A DNA stretch of 36,239 nt, taken from IMG/VR virus record IMGVR_UViG_3300006805_000018, positions 1-36,239 of that record; one strand, written 5' to 3'. Below, piece by piece: positions 1,870 to 27,457 of the stretch (position 1 is its first letter; every line of letters begins with the position of its first letter). A model generated the notes under the pieces. It saw only the letters and a program-made list of their open reading frames with translations. It ran no database searches and was not told where the DNA came from. The position numbers were made by a program, and so were the translations under genes. The stretch comes from a virus.

Positions 1870-2175
1870 ATGAATTTTCAAGGAGTGATTAAGGAAAAAA
1901 CACCAGTAGTTGAAGTAGGGCAAAATGCAGTTAGGAAGATTTCTTTTATGATTGAAGAAGTCTGACAAAAACAGTACAAAGATAGTCTCGTTATTGATGC
2001 TATTAAGGATAAGGTTGATTTAGTAGAGAAACTACCTATTGGATCAGAAGTTGCTATTACATACAATGGAAGAGCTAACAGCTATAATGGCAAGCTATAT
2101 AACTGACTATCATTGTGGAAGTTAGAGGTTATTAGTGAGCCACAAGAAGAAGAAATTGAAGACGTATTATTTTAA
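1870..2175 (+). CDS. DUF3127-like OB-fold protein, probable SSB
   Basis: 101 residues in code 25. The C-terminal half, Y-N-G-K-L-Y-N-G-L-S-L-W-K-L-E, matches the end of DUF3127 proteins, where the R-x-Y-N-G-K-x-F-N-x-L-x-A-W-K-I-E pattern belongs to a predicted single-strand DNA-binding OB fold common in phages and Bacteroidetes. The acidic tail (E-E-E-I-E-D-V-L-F) resembles the acidic tip with a terminal hydrophobic residue that SSB proteins use to recruit partners. Its place after RecT and the exonuclease fits a recombination or replication SSB. The ATG at 1870 is in frame with the whole domain; the one at 1865 is in another frame. Confidence 0.75.
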
Positions 2176-4717: not shown

Positions 4718-4761
4718 TATGAAGTTAGATAACCGACTAGTATAATAACTGGTCTATATCT

Positions 4762-4843
4762 GGTAACGAGTAGTAGTTGGATGCTGTCCTAGCTGTACAC
4801 TAGGAGTCGAGAGACAGAGGTGGTTCGAATCCATCCGTTGCCA
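4762..4843 (+). tRNA. tRNA-Tyr (GUA)
   Basis: A class II tRNA. The 7-bp acceptor stem is GGTAACG/CGTTGCC (one wobble). A short D-arm follows (AGTA/TGCT with GG in the loop). The 5-bp anticodon stem CCTAG/CTAGG holds the loop CTGTACA with anticodon GTA. A long variable arm and a T-arm with TTCGAAT come next. The discriminator base is A and the CCA end is not encoded. The long variable arm fits bacterial tRNA-Tyr. The gene sits between small membrane-protein genes and a secreted enzyme. It decodes UAU/UAC, not UGA, so it is not the tRNA that supports the recoded stop. A 6-bp hairpin (AGACTA/TAGTCT) follows it. Confidence 0.88.
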
Positions 4844-4901
4844 TATATAGACTACGTTGTTAGTCTGACCCATTATGGGATATTTATTCTTAATCTTATA
4901 G

Positions 4902-7181: not shown

Positions 7182-7607
7182 ATGGATAAATATGGTAAGC
7201 CTTGAGAGAATATTTCTTTTCAAGAGTTTCAGGATATTATCCACTATAGAGAAGCCGAAAGAGTAATGGAGATTGAATGGTTAAAAAAAACAAGAGACGA
7301 CCTTAAACTACTGTTAGTAGATCGCACCTCACTAGATAACTGGATCTATGCTATGAAACTACAAGACAAAGGTATGATTGAAAGTATTAATCCACCTATC
7401 TATACTAAAAGCTATGATCATGTTATTTATCTAAATGAACCTATCGGTAATTATAAAACAGATTTATTTTCTATTTATCAAGAACCCGATTTTAAGGAAA
7501 TGTTTGATAAATATATTAATCATTGTTATCCTGATGCTTATGTATTTAGAAATTACAAAGACGACCAACAAGAAATTGATCTACTTTTATCTGAATTATT
7601 AGAGTAA
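7182..7607 (+). CDS. Hypothetical protein
   Basis: 141 residues; start chosen at 7182 because the frame is open through a single TGA glycine (P-G-E) near residue 7. It contains F-Q-E-F-Q-D-I-I-H-Y-R-E and a mixed alpha/beta composition with no membrane segment. No family is recognised. Its TAA overlaps the ATG of the methyltransferase gene (TAATG), so translation is coupled; an accessory role to methylation is possible. Confidence 0.7.
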
Positions 7608-8248
7608 TGAAAACAAATATAGTAATACAGTGAGATTGCTTAGAATACATGAAAACATTGCCTGATAAGTGTATAGATTTAGTACTTACTGATCCACCGT
7701 ATTGAATAGGTATAAAATGAAAAGTAGGGGGGGGAAAGTTAGCTAAAGTAAAAGATTATTGAGAATTTAATAATCGAGATCAATTTAGACCAAGTAGAGA
7801 ATACTTTGAACAGATACAAAGAATAAGTAAAAATGCAATTATTTTTTGATGAAATTATTTTAGCTCTGACTTACCTGATAGCTCTTGCCGAATTGTCCGA
7901 GATAAAAACAACAGCTGAAACTTCGCTGATTGTGAGTTAGCTTGGACTAACTTTAATACTGCAGTGAGGATGTTTAAATGGACTCGAAATGGTATGCTTC
8001 AAGAAGATATGGCTAATAAAGAATTTAGAGAACACCCAACGCAAAAACCAGTACCATTATTTAGACGAATATTAGAAAACTACTCAAAAGAATGAGATAT
8101 AGTCCTTGATTGTTTTGCTTGATCTTGAACTACATGAGTTGCATGTAAAGAATTATGAAGAAAATATATCTTAATAGAAAAAGAACCTAAATATATTGAA
8201 GTAATAAATAAGAGATTATCTACAGTTACCAAGTCTTTATTTGTATAG
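7607..8248 (+). CDS. DNA methyltransferase (N6-adenine or N4-cytosine, beta class)
   Basis: 213 residues in code 25. The catalytic motif D-P-P-Y is at about residues 32-35 and the AdoMet-binding motif F-A-G-S-G-T-T-G lies near residues 170-177, so the motif order is that of the beta class (PF01555 type). T-Q-K-P precedes the second motif, as usual. In F-A-G-S-G-T-T-G all three glycines are TGA, a clear test of the recoding. It methylates phage or host DNA, most simply to protect against restriction. A run of eight G residues (7727-7734) early in the gene could slip and switch it off. Translation is coupled to the previous gene. Confidence 0.9.
7727..7734 (+). repeat. G8 homopolymer inside the methyltransferase gene
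   Basis: Eight consecutive G residues read in frame as the end of a valine codon context followed by three glycines (GGG GGG GGA). The genome is A/T-rich and prefers TGA for glycine, so the tract stands out. Slippage by one base would truncate the enzyme shortly after its D-P-P-Y motif. Confidence 0.85.
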
Positions 8249-8253
8249 ATACC

Positions 8254-8457
8254 ATGATAGACCAAATAATAGATAGACGAATTGAACTATGAAAACAAAT
8301 TAGTGCAACGACTATATTCTCTAGAGCTAAAAGAGCAGACGAAATGATAAGAGCTGGATGGACTATAGATGAGGTTAATATGATAAGCGAATCTAAGTGT
8401 GCTAATATGTTACGGAATATATTAAATGATAATTCTTTTACTACTTATATGTCATAA
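8254..8457 (+). CDS. Small hypothetical protein, paralogue 1
   Basis: 67 residues in code 25. The first 40 or so residues are nearly identical in pattern to the gene at 9449: I-D-R-R-I-E-L-G-K-Q-I-S-A-T-T, then S-R-A-K-R-A and A-G-W-T-x-D-E. The C-termini differ. The two copies flank the D12-class methyltransferase exactly. It is helical and basic with no recognised family. Its stop overlaps the methyltransferase start (TAATG). It could bind DNA or assist the methyltransferases; this is inferred from position only. Confidence 0.75.
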
Positions 8458-9455
8458 TGAGCAGATATTGAATACCATATAAAGGTAGTAAATCAAGGAT
8501 TGTAGATCTGATACTGAAAGTTTTGCCGAAATATTTGCCAGTATGGGATATATTTTGATGATGATGAGCAGTATCTTTGGCTTGTCTTGATTCTTGATTT
8601 CACAATGAGATTAACTACAATGAGCTCGATCCTGATATATACAATCTATTCAAAGCATTGTGTAATGGAGAATTGAATATTAAAGAACTGAAAAAAAGAT
8701 TTATAACAAGAGAAGAATTTATTGAAATAAAAAATAAGGATCATAAAACCCCAATAGATAATGTTATATTGTTATGCTATAGCTTCTGAAATAATATGTC
8801 TTGTTATATGTACTGAAAAGATATAGAGCTTCGAAAACAATTACTACATAAAATACACTTCAAAGATATAAAAGATAAACAAGAGTTTGATGATACATTG
8901 CATCTAATGACAGAAAGTAGAATATTCAAACTTAGAGATAATACAGAATATAGGATATATATGGAGCGAGATTATGAAGATTATTTAAATGATGATTATC
9001 CAAGAAATAAATTAAGACATAAAATAATTAGTAGAAAAACATTAGATTGAATAGAATTATGAAATTATAAAGATGATTTTGATGCACAGAATTATCAGCT
9101 AGAGAGACTACAGAGACTAGAGAGACTACAGAGCCTAGAGAGACTACAGAGCCTAGAGAGACTAGAGTTACATAATAAAGACTATAGGGATTTAGATATA
9201 CCAGCAGGAGATGTTATATATTGTGATCCTCCATATGAAAATTCACATCAATATAAAATATGAATGTTTGACTCAGTAGCATTCCGAGAACGAGCAGAGG
9301 AGAAATCAAAAACTAATCCTATATTTATATCAAGTTATATTGGTAGAGACTGACGGAAAGAAATTGATACAGGTAAATGAAATATAATGTCTAAAAAAGA
9401 TTGAAAACATACAGACCATAAAGAAAAAATATTTTATAAATGATTATCATGGTAG
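8457..9455 (+). CDS. D12-class N6-adenine DNA methyltransferase (Dam-like)
   Basis: 332 residues in code 25. The N-terminus I-P-Y-K-G-S-K is the AdoMet-binding P-Y-x-G-x-K motif of the D12 (alpha) class. F-G-G-G-A-V-S-L is motif I near residue 33; its three glycines are TGA TGA TGA. C-D-P-P-Y-E is the catalytic motif, near residues 255-260. This is the Dam-type order. The middle part would hold target recognition and contains a run of L-E-R-L-Q-(R/S) repeats at about residues 215-237, encoded by 18-bp tandem repeats. The gene is flanked by two copies of a small paralogous gene, as if it had been inserted with, or between, a duplication. Confidence 0.88.
9099..9167 (+). repeat. 18-bp tandem repeat within the D12 methyltransferase
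   Basis: Three full copies and one partial copy of an 18-bp unit beginning CTAGAGAGACTACAGAG. The copies differ by a single base at the end of the first. Each adds six residues (L-E-R-L-Q-R or L-E-R-L-Q-S). Because the unit length is a multiple of three, gain or loss of copies would lengthen or shorten a helical linker in the protein without breaking the frame. Confidence 0.9.
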
Positions 9456-9622
9456 ATAAAATAATTGATAGACGAATTGAATTATGAAAGCAGATTAGTG
9501 CTACTACTGTAATATCAAGAGCAAAGAGAGCTAAAGAGATGATGAGAGCTTGATGGACTATGGATGAGATATGCACTAAAAAATCATGGTCAAAAATTAT
9601 ACAACCAAAGAAATCCACCTAG
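9449..9622 (+). CDS. Small hypothetical protein, paralogue 2
   Basis: 57 residues in code 25, related along its first 40 residues to the protein of the gene at 8254 (I-I-D-R-R-I-E-L-G-K-Q-I-S-A-T-T). Similarity continues at the DNA level, so the duplication is fairly recent. The C-terminus is basic (K-K-S-W-S-K-I-I-Q-P-K-K-S-T). It overlaps the methyltransferase stop by 7 nt and is the last gene of the left + strand unit; the terminator stem starts within its final codons. Confidence 0.7.
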
Positions 9623-9635
9623 TGTGGGTTTTTTT
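9613..9635 (+). terminator. Intrinsic terminator of the left + strand unit
   Basis: A 6-bp stem (ATCCAC/GTGGGT, one G-T pair) with a 5-nt loop is followed directly by a run of seven T. It overlaps the stop codon of the last + strand gene and ends the transcript that begins in the recombination region. Confidence 0.8.
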
Positions 9636-9808
9636 ATAACTAAAAATCTCACAACTTTTACAAGACTACACACATATAGCCAAGAAAAATAAATTGAGAT
9701 TTAGTGTTTTGAATATAATTCAAAATTGGTTTAGGACCCAAGATTGATTTATAGTAAAGACATGAGGTTTTGCAAGTTATTTAATATAAAATCTATCTAC
9801 AAGTAATT
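9636..9808. other. Gene-free convergent region with A/T-rich inverted repeats
   Basis: No open frame is credible on either strand. Two perfect inverted repeats stand out: AAATCTCA (9644-9651) with TGAGATTT (9695-9702), enclosing 43 nt, and TTTTGAAT/ATTCAAAA (9707-9725) with a 3-nt loop. The segment lies between the terminator of the + strand unit and a terminator for - strand transcripts. It may only be a transcriptional buffer, but such symmetric A/T-rich DNA is also typical of replication or packaging sites. Confidence 0.45.
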
Positions 9809-9834
9809 AAAAACCACTATAACTAGTATAGTGG
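9809..9834 (-). terminator. Strong intrinsic terminator (- strand)
   Basis: The 8-bp perfect stem CCACTATA/TATAGTGG has a 5-nt loop. On the - strand it is followed by five T (five A at 9809-9813 on the given strand). It lies about 120 nt beyond the CHAP gene and its own terminator, so it is either a backup terminator or the end of a separate small RNA. Confidence 0.8.
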
Positions 9835-9910
9835 CTTGATATGGGCTTATCTTAGCGGTTATTTATTCTAAGGCTTATATTCTACATTGTAGGGTATATA
9901 TTATACCTTG
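9835..9910 (-). ncRNA. Candidate small structured RNA between two - strand terminators
   Basis: On the - strand this stretch can form GGTATA/TATACC with a 3-nt loop, CTAC/GTAG, and CTTAG/CTAAG, and ends in the strong terminator at 9809-9834. It starts just after the CHAP-gene terminator, with TATAAT at its left end as a possible -10 box, although no -35 box is convincing. It could instead be an extended 3' end of the late transcript. Confidence 0.3.
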
Positions 9911-9915
9911 TGAGT

Positions 9916-9933
9916 AAAAACGCTCGTTACGTT
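9916..9933 (-). terminator. Weak intrinsic terminator after the CHAP endolysin
   Basis: On the - strand AACG/CGTT with a 7-nt loop is followed by TTTTT, about 25 nt after the CHAP stop codon. The stem is short. Flanking GTGA/TCAC could extend the fold around the U-run. Confidence 0.5.
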
Positions 9934-9957
9934 CACATTATTATTATAATATGTCAA

Positions 9958-10395
9958 TTATTTCTTCCTATAGAAATTTAGTACTGGATATTGTCACCAC
10001 TTATGAAACTGCACCATGATTGCATCTTCTCAATATCAGGATCAATCTCATGTTTTTGCATTTTGAGATATGATATAATAACCTCAATCAATTTGTTTAT
10101 GGATTACTCACACATGTCAGTCAGGGTTTCACTTAAAAGCATTAATCACTATAATGTCTCATCTCTCTGCTCTTACTGTTGGTCATGGTGTTAGCTTGTG
10201 TCGTAGTGCTGGGTCAAATGTTCAACCCTTTTTATAGGTAGCTTTCCTTGCAGATCATCCAAAAGATCATAGCTTTATACCATGTACTTGTAGCGAGTAG
10301 TCTTTTACTTGAGCAACACACTGAAATCAGTATTGTGGTGATTCTTGTACTTTCTCTGTTAGTCTAAGAATTAAGTAGTCGTTATGTAGTAACAT
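9958..10395 (-). CDS. CHAP-domain endolysin
   Basis: 145 residues in code 25. It fits a CHAP (cysteine, histidine-dependent amidohydrolase/peptidase) domain across most of its length: Q-C-V-A-Q-V-K-D-Y with the nucleophile C26, G-D-I-I-V-I near residue 79, G-H-V-G-V-I-H with H94, and Y-I-I-S-Q-N with the third polar residue near 111. These enzymes cut peptidoglycan peptides or amide bonds. There is no signal peptide, so release through the holin (12544) is expected. Its start overlaps the stop of the preceding membrane-protein gene (TAATG). It is the last gene of the late - strand unit and is followed by terminators. Confidence 0.82.
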
Positions 10396-10571
10396 TATTT
10401 ATTGTTAGAATTAAAAGCCCCAGTCTTAGGGAGTTCTTTTTTTGATTCTTCTAGTATTCGTATCTCAACTTGTTTCATAGGTTCACATCTTGGAATAGCT
10501 ACAGATTGTTTACCAAGAAAATAAAACAAGATACAAGTCAGAATAGTTAGTATTCAAATAAATCTATTCAT
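10395..10571 (-). CDS. Small membrane-anchored protein of the lysis group
   Basis: 58 residues in code 25. One N-terminal membrane segment (about residues 3-20, F-I-G-I-L-T-I-L-T-C-I-L-F-Y-F-L-G) is followed by a short charged tail with C-E-P-M-K-Q. A lipoprotein-like or spanin-like role is possible because it is wedged between other lysis-group genes and coupled to the CHAP gene. An L-P-K-T-G string near the C-terminus is not followed by a membrane segment, so it is not a sortase signal. Confidence 0.6.
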
Positions 10572-19904: not shown

Positions 19905-20096
19905 TTAAGATACTCGTCAGCTTTCTGTAAAGAATCTGATTGTAGTTCAATTATGATAGTAATCTCCTAGTTGTGCATACTTTGGTTCTGATGATAATGT
20001 CCCGAAATATCTGCCACGATAAGTTCCAATATCATCATCATCTATTGTTTGTTGTGGTATATCTATTGTTAGCGGTTCTCGTTCTTTTTTACTCAT
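19905..20096 (-). CDS. Small virion-region hypothetical protein
   Basis: 63 residues, acidic in the first half (I-D-D-D-D-I-G-T-Y-R-G-R-Y-F) with a short beta-like end (T-T-I-R-F-F-T-E-S-G). It overlaps the upstream structural gene by 8 nt and ends 13 nt before the M23-like gene. No family is recognised; a minor virion or chaperone role is inferred from the neighbours. Confidence 0.6.
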
Positions 20097-21477
20097 CTAT
20101 TAGCACTGGTTCAAAACTAAAGTCATATACCTTTGGTGATTTAGTCTGATCTGTTGTTATAAGCTCAAACTTGAATTGTATTTCATGTCACTCAAATGCT
20201 TGATTTAATAGATTATATTTCTTCTTTCATATAGTACTTAAATTTGCAAATTCTGCAAATGATCATCAATCTACACTAACATATAGTTTTACGCTTGTTC
20301 AAGTTTCATTAAAGATGTTTGTTTTAATCTTATGAGCCTTTGTCTTTTTGCCTCAGAACGTATACTTTTGTGTTCTTATTTCTCATGATGGTAGATAATT
20401 AGTACTATCTAAATCAATATAATCAACTCAAAATGATGTTGATGACTTCCAAGCAAAATATACCCTTGGCGATCATGAAGTATTAGTTGCTATCTTAATA
20501 GCAGTCACATCAATATCATCTCATACGGAGTTTTTTGTTGTCTCTATACTCCAAGCTCTAGGCATTCATACTTTCTTAGCTCAATATGATGTCAGTCATC
20601 ATTTAGATATCACATACATTATATTTGATACTCAATCAGATGAGTCATTTCATAACATATAATCTCATGTTATTCACCATCACAATGATCTACCAAAGTG
20701 AAATACTTTTTTTCCGTCAGACAGTGTTCTTGCTGTAGCGAATATTTCTCTTTGCAATCAAGGAGTAAATACTTGCGAATATTCAGGCTTACCTCATGTT
20801 ACTACTAATTGAATACCCTCTTGGAAGATAGAGGATTTATATTGTCAACTATAGTCTTCATATGCGTTTGGATTCGTATTTGCTCAATCAAAGTACGCAT
20901 ATATTCAATCTGTCGTAAAACATTGAAAGTTATTTAATCTACGCCATATACCACATACCATAGATGATGATAGTGACAACAGTGGCGTATTTGTTCCAGA
21001 TCAAGTTAGATATGTGATTATGTTTCATAGTCATCACAATAGATAGTTTGCTCAATCTCTTATATATGACGTAAAATAATTGTATACGTAATCATTATCT
21101 CAAGATGTATTTCGATTTAATCATACATCAGATACGCTTATTCTTCAAATAGTAGCTCACGTTGAATATAATATATTTCATCATGCTTGTAAGATGTTCC
21201 ATATTGGGAATGGTGAGTCATAATCATCATTGCTAAACTTTTGATTTCATGAATGATCATAAATAAATCAATTTAGTGTACCGTATAAGTTATATCAAAG
21301 AAGTATTGATATTATCTCATCATTTCAAGTTTTTGTAAAGTGGTTTACTGGTTTGATTGCTAATTTTACATATTCAGGATCACGCAAATCTACTCATGCA
21401 GCATAAGCTACTTGATTCTTACCAACATATACATCGTGGTCAGATATTCATCATTGAAATCATTGTAGATATACCAT
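20089..21477 (-). CDS. Tail/neck structural protein, beta-rich
   Basis: 462 residues in code 25. It is rich in G, S, T, N, Y and aromatic residues, with repeating short strands such as G-D-Y-M-L-G-N-D and I-M-Y-V-I-S-K-G-G-L, which suggests a beta-propeller or similar repeat fold. It starts in a TAATG overlap with the connector-like gene at 21477, an order (portal, scaffold, capsid, connector, tubular/nozzle protein) that fits the tail tubular or nozzle protein of short-tailed phages. No sequence family is clearly recognised. Confidence 0.6.
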
Positions 21478-22181
21478 TATTTTCCGTAGTGATTGTAAAG
21501 TGTTGTATAATCTGCTTGCTGGGATTCTTGGTTTCTCCCTTTAATTCTTTTAATTGCTTTCTTCATAGAATCTTCAAATATTACCCTTGCGTTATTTGCC
21601 TCATTGGTTTCTCATTTCTTCCTATAAATACGCTCTTTTAGTCAGTCAACAATAAGGTAATGATATTGTCTTAGATTTGGTTGTCATGGGAATACGTCAG
21701 ACTCTCCAGTTGTTGTTGTTAAATCAGGAAGATCTGCAACTCACTTAATAAATAGTCAATCTGTTACATTCTCTAGTGGTTGTGGATATATATCAATATA
21801 TTCTCAAACAAGATCATAAAATCTATCTCAAGCAGACCTAGAGCTATCATCAAATCATGATACTCGTGATGATCTTTTTTGTCTGACTGGTTCGTAATTA
21901 GTTTGATCAGCCTTATACTTGACTCATACTTCCAATATCTTCTTTAGCCCAGTATTTCATCAGTTAGATGTAGGTAATTGATACCTATATTGACTAGCAA
22001 CTAGATTAGTTGTAAATTCAGTATAGAATAAATTGTCATAGATTTCATCTACTAGTCTATTTTCTATTTCATGATATATAATGTTTACGTCTTTTATTAA
22101 CTCTGCATCAGATAATCAAGTAAGGCTTGAACTTGTGTTAGAGTCGAGACGTGCCATTGTCATTATGTCAGCTACATTCAT
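21477..22181 (-). CDS. Head-to-tail connector / adaptor protein
   Basis: 234 residues in code 25. The furthest in-frame ATG (22181) gives an N-terminus M-N-V-A-D-I-M-T-M-A-R-L...L-S-D-A-E-L-I-K-D-V-N-I-I-Y-H-E-I-E, which follows the V-x-D-I-I-x-x-A-R-x-x-L...x-x-x-x-E-L-L-x-x-x-N-x-A pattern of phage adaptor proteins. I therefore prefer it to the ATG at 22157. The rest is mixed alpha/beta, with G-L-K-E-R-I-Y-R-K-K-G-E near residue 190. It would join portal to tail. It follows the major capsid gene and one small gene. Confidence 0.65.
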
Positions 22182-22420: not shown

Positions 22421-23254
22421 TTATGCCAATGTATACTTGTATGTAACAATACATTTTGCGTCTTCACCAACGGTTGCTGCTTGGTAGAATGATTCACCAA
22501 CAATCTGATAACCGATTGCATTTGGAGAGTCAACTACTTTCATTTCAGTAAGCTGATTGATAAAGTGTGGTTTGTCTACTGAGAATGCAACCATCTTACC
22601 AGCTGGAGCTCTTGTAGTACCTACAAATACGAATCCTGCATAGTTTGGAGCATCTGCTGTGTCTTGGAGAGCTGACAATCCAGACTCAGTATATACAAAG
22701 ATACCTGATTGTCTAAGGAGAGGAGCAATAGCCCAATCAATAGCACAGATTCTAGTATCTGGAGCATTGTTTGAGTTAAGAGTTGTAGCCATTTCTTCGA
22801 TAGCTTCGATAATGTTTGTTTTATCGAGTGCAACTGCTGAAGACTCATGTAGCTTGTTAGCTGTTGGAGCATCAGTTGCTAGTGTAGCCAAGAAGTGAGT
22901 TTCTTGTAGGTTAGTAAGACCTTGTGCAATAGCATCCATTAGTCCACCCTTAACATTGAAAGCTGCTCTAATTGATTCAATAGTTCTAACAAATTTATTG
23001 ATACCGTATGCTTGGTTTACTGTTACAGTATAAACATCAGTATCAAAAGCTGACCTTGCAATATCTGCACCGAGATCAGAGATAGCTGACCAAGACTGCA
23101 CTGGCATAGATTCTACTTTTACTGTTTGACCTTTCATAGATACATCACCTTCATATTCACGATTTGCGAATTTAATGAATGCTGATTGATCATCAAGTCT
23201 CATTTGGAGATTATCTCTCACGATTGTTGCTAATTCATAAACGTTTCCTGCCAT
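22421..23254 (-). CDS. Major capsid protein
   Basis: 277 residues, HK97-fold-like in character: an N-terminal helix (Y-E-L-A-T-I-V-R-D-N-L), I-R-A-A-F-N-V-K-G-G-L, many A/V/T, and a C-terminal G-Y-Q-I-V-G-E-S-F-Y-Q-A-A-T-V-G-E-D-A. It lies after portal and scaffold, where a capsid gene is expected. All 16 glycines are GGN codons and there is no TGA, unlike the neighbours, which use TGA for most glycines. This fits selection for fast or accurate translation of the most abundant protein. An AAAAAAGGAGGG string lies 47 nt before the start, too far for a Shine-Dalgarno site, and a small ACAC/GTGT hairpin lies between. Confidence 0.85.
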   Translation of the reverse strand: MAGNVYELATIVRDNLQMRLDDQSAFIKFANREYEGDVSMKGQTVKVESMPVQSWSAISDLGADIARSAFDTDVYTVTVNQAYGINKFVRTIESIRAAFNVKGGLMDAIAQGLTNLQETHFLATLATDAPTANKLHESSAVALDKTNIIEAIEEMATTLNSNNAPDTRICAIDWAIAPLLRQSGIFVYTESGLSALQDTADAPNYAGFVFVGTTRAPAGKMVAFSVDKPHFINQLTEMKVVDSPNAIGYQIVGESFYQAATVGEDAKCIVTYKYTLA

Positions 23255-23311: not shown

Positions 23312-23845
23312 TTATACTACTTTCACTTCTCAATTCTTTGCTCTTCTTAATATATCTAATCTTTCAGATTGTTTCATCTTTCATAGGTCTTCAATATTAT
23401 AGATCAACATACTAGAGTTAGAGCTTCTTGCTGGTCTTCAGACTAAAGAAGATGTATGAGTCTTCTTTTCTTGTACTACTCATGCAAGTTTGATACATTC
23501 CTCATAACTTAATCAAGGATGCTTTTCTTTATACTCTTTTACTTTTTCATTTGATACCACTGCTTCTCAGAATTGAGCACAAGCAATGTCATACTCAACT
23601 TTAGATTCGAGTTGTTTCTTCTCTTCAAGTTCTTTTTGATAAAGATCTTTGTAGGAGTCCCTCTCTTCTCTTAGAGTTTCATAATATGCTTTTGTCTTTT
23701 CTTTTTGTTCTTTGATTTTATCGTTCTCAAGGATTTTCTTCTCCTCTTCTGATAATCAAGAATACTTGTCTGACTTATTTTCTACAGTTGTGTCTTCTGT
23801 TGATGTGTTTAGAGTCTCATCATTGACTGCTTCGTTGTTTTCCAT
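23312..23845 (-). CDS. Capsid scaffold protein
   Basis: 177 residues in code 25. It is very rich in E, K, D and Q, with an unbroken predicted coiled coil at about residues 30-95 (S-E-E-E-K-K-I-L-E-N-D...L-E-E-K-K-Q-L-E-S-K) and a short basic C-terminal helix (S-E-R-L-D-I-L-R-R-A-K-N-G), the usual capsid-binding end of scaffolds. It lies directly upstream of the major capsid gene, its normal place. No protease motif is seen, so scaffold removal may need another enzyme. Confidence 0.8.
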
Positions 23846-23933: not shown

Positions 23934-24203
23934 TTACAGTCTATCACTTAAATCAACTTGATCATAAGTTATATTTCATTTAATGATCTCACTAGGTAGT
24001 CATTTTACTAGCTCTAGTAATCTACATTGCATCTGCAATATATTTACTTTGCTATATTTTTTCTCATCTGCTCACTCTAGTGGTCAGTTTATAAACATTT
24101 TTAGAATTTCTGCAACTTTTGAATCTATTTTATCTTGTAGGAGCTTCCATCCAATACTAGATTCTAGTACTTGCATCTCGATTTTGATTTGTTTTTCTGT
24201 CAT
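23934..24203 (-). CDS. Small hypothetical protein between portal and scaffold
   Basis: 89 residues in code 25, helical and charged (M-Q-V-L-E-S-S-I-G-W-K-L-L-Q-D-K-I-D-S-K), with I-L-Q-M-Q-C-R-L-L-E-L-V-K-G. It is coupled to the portal gene by a TAATG overlap. It may be a portal or packaging accessory protein; no family is recognised. An 88-nt gap with no recognised signal follows before the scaffold gene. Confidence 0.65.
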
Positions 24204-26080
24204 TACATAGTGTTATCTTGTAAAGATGGAGCTTGATTTTCCATTTGTTTATTGGTTGCTACATTAGATGCAATGTTACTCATTTGTTGTAATGGATTTG
24301 ATCACTCTACTTGTTGTGGGGCTTTCTTGGTCTCTACATAAGCTAGTAGCCTTTTGGTGATCGCTTCATACTTTAACGGACTGTCATCAGCTTGTCTAAG
24401 TAGCGTAAGGAATGCCAAGTGATCCTCATTAAGATCAATATCATCTGGTTTCATATTGTTATTGATAAGCTCAACATCCATTTTACCTTTGATCAGTTCG
24501 TATGGTTCTTCAAGTATTTCCTCTAAAAAGTAATCATCTAATCAATAACATTCTCAAATATTCTTTAGGATATTATATTTTGTAAATTGTGTCTGAGCTG
24601 TTTGATAGAACATAGATCAATACATAGTGAGAAATTGTTTTTTCTCCTCTTTCTTCTCGATGTCTCTTGTTTTAGCTCTTACAATTATATTGTTAATTAG
24701 TTTGGCGATCTTCTCTTTAGTAATCGTTCCTTTCTTATATACTCAAGAAACACTAACAGTAACATCAATAGGATCTTCCATATTTCTAGCATATTCCTCA
24801 ATCCATTTCATCCAAAAGTCTTCCTCTGCATCCGCAATATATGTTTCTGTAAACATAGTCATCAAGTTTGCATTCTTTTGGTTTCTTACATTCTCTGTCG
24901 CTGTTACTCAGGCTCATCCACTTACTCATACTGATGAAGTATCTTGTCAAACACTATAAAATGCTTCACTCTTCAACATATCAGGCACATTATATGAGTC
25001 TTGCTTTATATTGTTTCTTTGTTGTACTCTTACAGGTTCTGGATTAATCCTAGCATCATATCATACATAAGTTGGTCAATTCTCATTGGGATTCAGTAGA
25101 TCATTAATATTTGTTAATGCTTCAGTATCTACAAAGTAAGTATCGAATCATGCTTCTGCTTTAGCCTTGAGATAGTTAAGATTCATAAAGATCTGACGCA
25201 TTCTTTGCTTATCCTCCAGTAGATCAAACACTGACTCACCAAATACATCATCAGGATTATCACTAAAGTATGTCACAGTAACTGGATAGTCAATTTCCAT
25301 AGGATTATCCTCTTGTTCTTTTCTTACTGGTGTGATTTCTTCAATAGACAATGTTAATGCTCTTTCATTAGCTAGTAATACTTTATAAGGTACTCACTCG
25401 TATCTAGTAAAGTGCATATAGATAGGACAAATGTTGAAGTCTGTCGCTGGTTGTAGATCTCTTAGTCTTTGTACTTCTCTATTTCGTTTCTCTGTTCATA
25501 CTTTGATCTTTTGATTAATCAACTTCTCCACATTTATATCTGCTTTAGTTTTGATCTCATCTATATTAAAGAATCACCCATAAGATAATTCTTCTTTTGT
25601 TACTTCTAGTTCAAATCAGTGGAAGTTATAACCAAAGTTTAGACTATAGTCAGGGTCAGGTATCCATGTTCTCGGGTCTACTAAGATATTGTCTACTCTT
25701 CCATTATTCCATGCCTGTAACTCAATAGAACATCAAGCGACTGCAATAGTTTCAATCTTTAGTTTGTTTTTTCTCGCTCTCTTAGTCTTTCTAAAGTCTT
25801 TTTCTGCAAGAGCTTGTAATAGCTTGAGATCATAGCTATCATAGTTACCAACATGTAAGAAATCTACCTCAAGGTCTTTCTTCCCATGTAGAGCCTTCTG
25901 TACCTTTACGATTGTTTTGACTAATCTATCATAGATCTTCTTATCTTGATCTGCAATATTATTATAAAGTTCATACCTCTCATCAATCCTAGTTCTTTTA
26001 TTAGACACAAAAGAGAAACCAGCTTCATACTCTGATTTCACCTTATTGATAATATCTTTTTCAAATTCTGTATTTTCCAT
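24203..26080 (-). CDS. Portal protein
   Basis: 625 residues in code 25. It has the size, position and composition of a short-tailed-phage portal, although I see no short diagnostic motif. The N-terminus is helical (K-S-E-Y-E-A-G...R-I-D-E-R-Y-E-L-Y-N-N), followed by a mixed alpha/beta region with D-P-R-T-W-I-P-D-P-D near residue 135, a typical portal segment. The C-terminus is Q/N-rich (L-Q-Q-M-S-N-I-A-S-N-V-A), as in many portals. It follows the terminase genes and precedes scaffold and capsid. The portal is the 12-subunit ring through which DNA enters and leaves the head. Confidence 0.8.
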
Positions 26081-26134: not shown

Positions 26135-27457
26135 CTATAGTGATTTTGATCGGTTTGGTTGTGATATAATTACTTGTTTCTTTTTACCTATTCACAGTAG
26201 TGATGAATAATTAACAGCTAAATATCTAAATGCATCAGCTCAATGAGATGATCGGTCATGTTCTGGATGATCTTTGAATATCTTTCTTTTCTCATCATAT
26301 TCTTTATGATATTGTCACAAACATCTATAAATGTATTCTGCTTTGTCCTTATTAATCCATAGATTTTGAAACATTGCTCTTGCTTGATCTATTCAATCCA
26401 TTATTCATAATCTAGGTGTTATCTTTATATTCTCTAATCATTTATTTCTCATTGTTTCTACTCTTGATACTCATGTTGTCAACTCTCTAGCTTCTGCATC
26501 ATGTGGTAGATAGTGGTTTCAATAGTTATAGCCTTTATCTTTTAGTTGTCTGATATAATAATCCATTCACTCTCAGCTAGATTCTAAATAGTCTATAATC
26601 CTTACTTCTTTACCAAAGATCTGAGCAAATATAATAGCTGTAGCATCTGATATTCACAAGTCCCAGAATGTATGTACATCTAAAGCAGGATCATAAGGAA
26701 TAGAACAGAATCTATTTTCCTCGTCCATCTTTTTGAGGTTACTAGAGTAGTAGGCTCATTGGACACTTGCATCAAAACTACAGTAGTATTCCTGTAACCA
26801 TAAATCATAATCCATTCACATATCAAGCTCTTCTTGTAGATATTCCTTTGAGATAATTGGGTTTCAATCCTCTCTACAAGTATCATCGACTGTTAATAGA
26901 CTTACTTCTCGCTTTGGGTTATCTTTAGCCAACATAAATAGATCATATCCATGATTACGTCATCTAGGTGTATAATTGAATCAAGCCCATCATCAGTTCT
27001 CTGCTAAGATAGGTCTAATAAGATCCCATGCTCTCGGATTAGATAGGGAGTATTCAGAAAACTGTACTCATATAGGATTAGATCAGACAAGTCTATCAAT
27101 CTGTCATAATTCAGTACCTACGATCTGTATAATAGATCAATTGATCATTTCGATCTTCATTTGTTGTTGATCTTTTCTTACTGTGATTTCTTCGGGGATA
27201 TGATCTATGTATCTAAATCAATTAGCATCCATTCAATCCCATATAGCTTTTCTTGCTTGTGATTGTGTTGGGAAGATATAGAAATATAATCATGGAGTTT
27301 TCCATGCTTTATGTATCATATTATTTCGATCATCTCTATCCTTTCAAGCTCTACGATGCCAGACCTTTATAACTCTTTTGATTCAATTCTCTCTAGCTTT
27401 CCATACAGGCAATTGATATGATCTTGGTTTATATTTATGTGGGATATATAATTCCAT
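26135..27457 (-). CDS. terL: Terminase large subunit
   Basis: 440 residues in code 25. The ATPase domain comes first: an adenine-binding Q at residue 15 (S-Y-Q-L-P-V-W), a Walker A-type V-W-H-R-R-A-G-K-D (residues 32-40, with G38 coded by TGA), F-P-T-Q-S-Q-A-R-K near 62-70, and a Walker B-like G-V-Q-F-S-E-Y-S near 130-137. The RNase H-like nuclease domain follows, with T-F-W-D-L-G-I-S-D-A-T near 263-273 (first catalytic Asp), L-P-H-D-A-E-A near 318 and H-G-A-D-A-F-R-Y near 415. It packages DNA into the prohead through the portal. The start overlaps the small terminase stop (TAATG). Confidence 0.92.

Follow-up and report, generated by a model that had tools for sequence, protein, structure and literature searches.

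A TGA-free major capsid gene in a code-25 phage and probable codon-usage selection on highly expressed genes

Gene layout and TGA use in the window

The window analysed here is an entire IMG/VR record of 36,239 bases. The gene for its major head (capsid) protein occupies 22421..23254 of the minus strand, runs from ATG to TAA over 277 aa and matches the profile phrog_267 across residues 16-254 (E 1e-11). The gene is placed between probable scaffold and adaptor genes, all of them on the minus strand together with the genes on either side. Directly upstream is the probable scaffold gene (23312..23845, 177 aa), which was named from its position and its acidic, Lys/Glu-rich sequence and had no match in a family search; beyond it follow the probable portal gene (24203..26080, 625 aa), named by position and likewise without a match in family searches, and the terminase large subunit (26135..27457, 440 aa; phrog_2 4e-23, phrog_2472 1e-45). 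On the other side lie a head-tail adaptor (21477..22181, 234 aa; SU10_adaptor PF24175) and a virion/fibre-like gene (20089..21477, 462 aa), for which family searches returned no match. A tRNA-Tyr(GTA) gene at 4761..4844 on the plus strand was the sole tRNA gene found in the window.

In-frame TGA is present in most window genes, and their open reading frames are open only when TGA is read through, as at 27 positions of the terminase, which served as a check on the genetic code. An independent comparison, in which TGA columns were masked and aligned with standard-code homologues, gave Gly in 194 cases, followed by Ser in 18, so that TGA is read as Gly.

The capsid gene departs from this usage. 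Its 16 Gly codons comprise 12 GGT, 4 GGA and no TGA, whereas TGA accounts for 506 of the 689 Gly codons in all other window genes pooled (0.73; Fisher p = 1.0e-9). The 24 other genes that have 10 or more Gly are all richer in TGA. The codon count thus bears out the initial annotation, which had reported a capsid gene with GGN glycines exclusively between TGA-rich neighbors: TGA encodes 7/7 Gly in the probable scaffold, 17/27 in the probable portal, 27/32 in the terminase, 12/16 in the adaptor and 43/52 in the virion/fibre-like gene. The next lowest share in any gene that has 5 or more Gly belongs to a DUF3127 protein gene (1870..2175, plus strand, 101 aa; PF11325 3e-12), whose TGA count of 2/7 involves too few codons to judge.

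TGA use in related capsid genes and in code-25 hosts

The terminase, together with the terminase and capsid protein of the first code-25 relative, served as queries that gave further code-25 contigs. In six code-25 phage lineages, the TGA share of the capsid gene was compared with the rest of the same contig. Searching viral contigs with the window capsid protein itself returned zero relatives. A DnaB Walker-motif pattern containing TGA gave six matches in viral contigs, all of them chance hits in standard code.

The capsid gene was TGA-free in four of the six lineages: in the window, in L080 (0/14; rest of the contig 0.51), in L079 (0/27; rest 0.31) and in L067 (0/25; rest 0.25), the last accompanied by the 98% identical L068 (0/24; rest 0.21). 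In the other two it was reduced but present, with 11/23 in L012 (rest 0.83) and 8/21 in L075 (rest 0.73); L076 and L078 had gene counts identical to L075 and are apparently the same virus. Pooled over the six lineages, capsid genes had far less TGA than the remaining genes (Mantel-Haenszel OR 0.077, p 2.6e-21). The per-gene tabulation in related phages proposed by the initial annotation therefore gave a low capsid share in every lineage. The capsid proteins fall into two major capsid protein (MCP) families, phrog_267 and phrog_1357, and that of the window is related by sequence to those of L012, L067 and L080.

A counterexample was found on a bacterial contig, G033:C13, where an HK97-type capsid gene (PF05065) uses TGA for 21/29 Gly against 0.59 for the contig. 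We take this gene to belong to a resident prophage that is not known to be active; the G033 host nonetheless avoids TGA in EF-Tu (2/35). Searches of 145 genomes of the class with PF05065 and phrog_1357 yielded this one clear code-25 prophage capsid. The avoidance that had been described as complete hence holds for the window and three other lineages, and not for L012, L075 or the prophage. Normal capsid TGA use in relatives, which the initial annotation had regarded as contrary to its reading, was seen in the prophage alone, which has another capsid family. On the same contig (L171), a run of short minus-strand ORFs at about 7220-10427 adjoins TGA-rich prophage-like genes and contains 0/9, 0/6, 1/7 and 0/4 TGA, which possibly reflects recent acquisition or high expression.

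Depletion of TGA was also observed in bacteria. A RecA pattern that required TGA for both Walker glycines found nine code-25 genomes, and one of these draft genomes, G004, was studied in depth as a stand-in host that is not known to host the window phage. Over about 766 kb, its overall TGA share was 0.626. TGA made up 62/203 Gly codons in its ribosomal proteins (0.31 vs 0.63 genome-wide), 14/60 in EF-G and 20/54 in GroEL. EF-Tu had a lower TGA share than its flanking ORFs in 20/20 code-25 species (sign p 2e-6; pooled 159/736 vs 400/985), where the ORFs, as in all sets, were called mechanically and the flanks may contain spurious ones. The weakest case was G008, in which avoidance was almost nil (EF-Tu 35/38, flanks 0.93). 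Across the G004 genome, non-Gly codon adaptation and TGA share were weakly correlated (rho -0.10, p 0.04). One tRNA-Gly(TCA) gene was found in 995 kb of G004, and the GCC and UCC Gly isoacceptors were not recovered from this draft, whose tRNA-Gly inventory is incomplete. A thymidylate synthase-like gene of the same genome (G004:C1:123066-124097) has no TGA among 20 Gly and is likely a recent transfer from a standard-code organism.

Probable selection on a reassigned codon and competing explanations

The neutral TGA share was computed from the bases present at four-fold sites, with Gly codons excluded. The values so expected, 0.73 for the window and 0.83 for L012, match the observed backgrounds, which places ordinary genes of these two phages near mutational equilibrium and the capsid gene away from it; in the other lineages the background TGA share is itself below the expectation. 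The remaining codons of the window capsid gene are shifted as well. Its non-Gly codon adaptation, at 0.675, is the highest of 29 genes (mean 0.585, sd 0.028), and its non-Gly codon shift correlates with that of the highly expressed genes of the stand-in host (rho 0.44, p 8e-4). Within their own contigs, the capsid genes of L067 and L079 rank first in non-Gly adaptation and those of L068 and L080 second, and those of L012 (10/11) and L075 (6/14) are not better adapted in other codons.

Taken together, the TGA-free capsid gene is probably an extreme case of codon-usage selection on highly expressed genes in code-25 organisms. AT-biased mutation alone would bring TGA to about 0.73 of the Gly codons in the window, where ordinary genes are indeed found, and the capsid gene is held away from that value and uses GGT and GGA. 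Under this explanation, UGA, decoded by one dedicated tRNA-Gly(UCA), would take longer to read than GGT and GGA or draw on a scarcer tRNA, and would be purged where ribosome traffic per gene peaks, which in a phage would be the capsid gene late in infection. TGA depletion is common to unrelated code-25 phages and to EF-Tu, EF-G, ribosomal proteins and chaperonin of the hosts; that capsid genes and the most active host genes are nearly or fully UGA-free suggests that the reassigned UGA still carries some translation cost. On this evidence from six lineages and highly expressed host genes, the proposal of the initial annotation that the most abundant phage protein is under selection against the reassigned codon is well supported.

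Several observations run against this explanation: the probable scaffold gene is likely also abundant and uses TGA for every Gly, the MCP gene of the G033 prophage and EF-Tu of G008 are TGA-rich, the codon adaptation of the L012 and L075 capsid genes is unremarkable, and across the stand-in host G004 non-Gly codon adaptation tracks TGA share only weakly. The contrast between the scaffold gene and the MCP gene just downstream of it could alternatively mean that the UGA share of Gly codons tunes how much each gene of a single late transcript produces relative to the others. Reassigned codons would then be purged from the capsid gene and also retained in minor structural genes to hold back their output, a reading that we consider improbable.

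Recent acquisition of the capsid gene from a standard-code phage, with TGA not yet regained by mutation, would predict exactly zero TGA, and the thymidylate synthase-like gene of G004 is a probable transfer of this kind in a host. However, a search of 50,697 phage records gave no relative of the capsid protein, nor did the standard-code loci compared, and INPHARED phages with related terminases yielded no capsid relative. The sequence relatives found are code-25 phage capsids alone, the nearest of them the TGA-using L012, and the GC3 of the gene equals that of the genome, which makes such a transfer distinctly improbable and leaves this alternative, raised by the initial annotation itself, unsupported. 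Transfer would also leave unexplained why L012 and L075 are partly depleted and why host EF-Tu is depleted as well. Chance or composition, by which one gene of about 40 would lack TGA by accident, draws on the small number of Gly codons in the gene, but the Fisher test in the window, the repetition in five further lineages and a capsid TGA share below even a composition-only expectation of 0.42 (p 1.6e-4) leave it a virtually negligible probability; replication in other lineages refutes it.

Two further explanations place the cost of UGA elsewhere in translation. Most bacteria read UGA as a stop, and the initial annotation had proposed that release factor competes for it and causes premature termination. 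RF2 (prfB) was found above the family cut-off in 0/9 code-25 hosts vs 10/10 bacterial controls, and five weaker prfB matches in the hosts all carried an RF1-type motif and no SPF; with no RF2 found in these nine hosts, this cause is highly unlikely. Alternatively, UGA might be misread at times, for example as Trp, with errors that abundant structural proteins could not afford, and proteomics of a BD1-5 bacterium did detect low-level misreading of UGA as Trp, Ala, Asp and Lys (PMC4032931). Avoidance driven by accuracy should make TGA rarer at conserved Gly sites, but in 153 host genes the Gly sites that are conserved in E. coli had no less TGA than the remaining Gly sites (OR 1.08, p 0.51), so we regard accuracy as a rather unlikely cause. 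This negative result favors a limit on tRNA supply or on the rate of decoding. From elimination and analogy, the most likely cause of selection against TGA would be slow UGA decoding or a limited pool of tRNA-Gly(UCA), the latter being the other cause put forward by the initial annotation. No tRNA-Gly(UCA) gene was found in the window phage, and with tRNA-Tyr as its only detected tRNA, it would need the tRNA-Gly(UCA) of its host.

Known systems and an apparent second reassigned codon

Avoidance of reassigned codons in highly expressed genes has a counterpart in Blastocrithidia (UAR = Glu, UGA = Trp), where reassigned stops are depleted in abundant proteins and cytosolic ribosomal protein genes, which was interpreted as translational burden (PMC12153298). 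Blastocrithidia is a eukaryote with a modified release factor that still uses UAA as a stop, whereas the present case concerns bacteria and phages in which UGA encodes Gly and no RF2 was found. Similarly, in a ciliate, reassigned UAA/UAG are less used in the 10% of genes with the highest expression (PMC10553269), a system that differs in its codons, its eukaryotic nucleus and the lack of a virus. As in ordinary codon-usage bias, the window capsid gene is shifted in its remaining codons too, and the highly expressed host genes shift alike, but the most avoided codon here is a former stop, which outnumbers every other Gly codon in the rest of the genome. Absconditabacteria/Gracilibacteria have code-25 phages and prophages with dense in-frame TGA encoding Gly (PMC10746230; RSA-ATP1, PMC13059738), and the parts of these two papers that were consulted make no mention of per-gene TGA use or capsid avoidance; RSA-ATP1 encodes a tRNA-Gly(UCA), unlike the window phage (PMC13059738). 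A literature search whose coverage leaves out most subscription journals returned no report of avoidance in code-25 bacteria or phages.

The avoidance of TGA indicates that a former stop codon now encoding Gly, though the commonest Gly codon here, is not equivalent to GGN even after the reassignment has been fixed, and the residual cost of reassigned stops described earlier in eukaryotes would extend to bacteria and phages jointly. In addition, the TGA share may provide a proxy for expression level, readable from sequence alone, in a group of organisms of which hardly any have been cultured.

CGA apparently encodes Trp in the window phage. In the terminase, again used as the check, 13/15 standard-code homologues have Trp at CGA residue 183 and 9/11 at CGA residue 402, and over the CGA columns of all window genes Trp was counted 23 times, with Arg outside the four commonest residues. 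With CGA read as Trp, two DNA methyltransferases, an HNH endonuclease and NinG score higher against their profiles, and the terminase scores slightly lower; the other window genes contain about 63 CGA vs 77 TGG. This assignment agrees with the code predicted for Absconditabacteria (PMC8629427), the only paper returned by a literature search on CGA as Trp, and points to a possible host among these bacteria. If it is true, the phage would have one stop and one sense codon reassigned. In the code-25 phage L079 (IMGVR_UViG_3300042465_006658), CGA corresponds to Arg (54 Arg columns), so that the meaning of CGA differs among code-25 phages.
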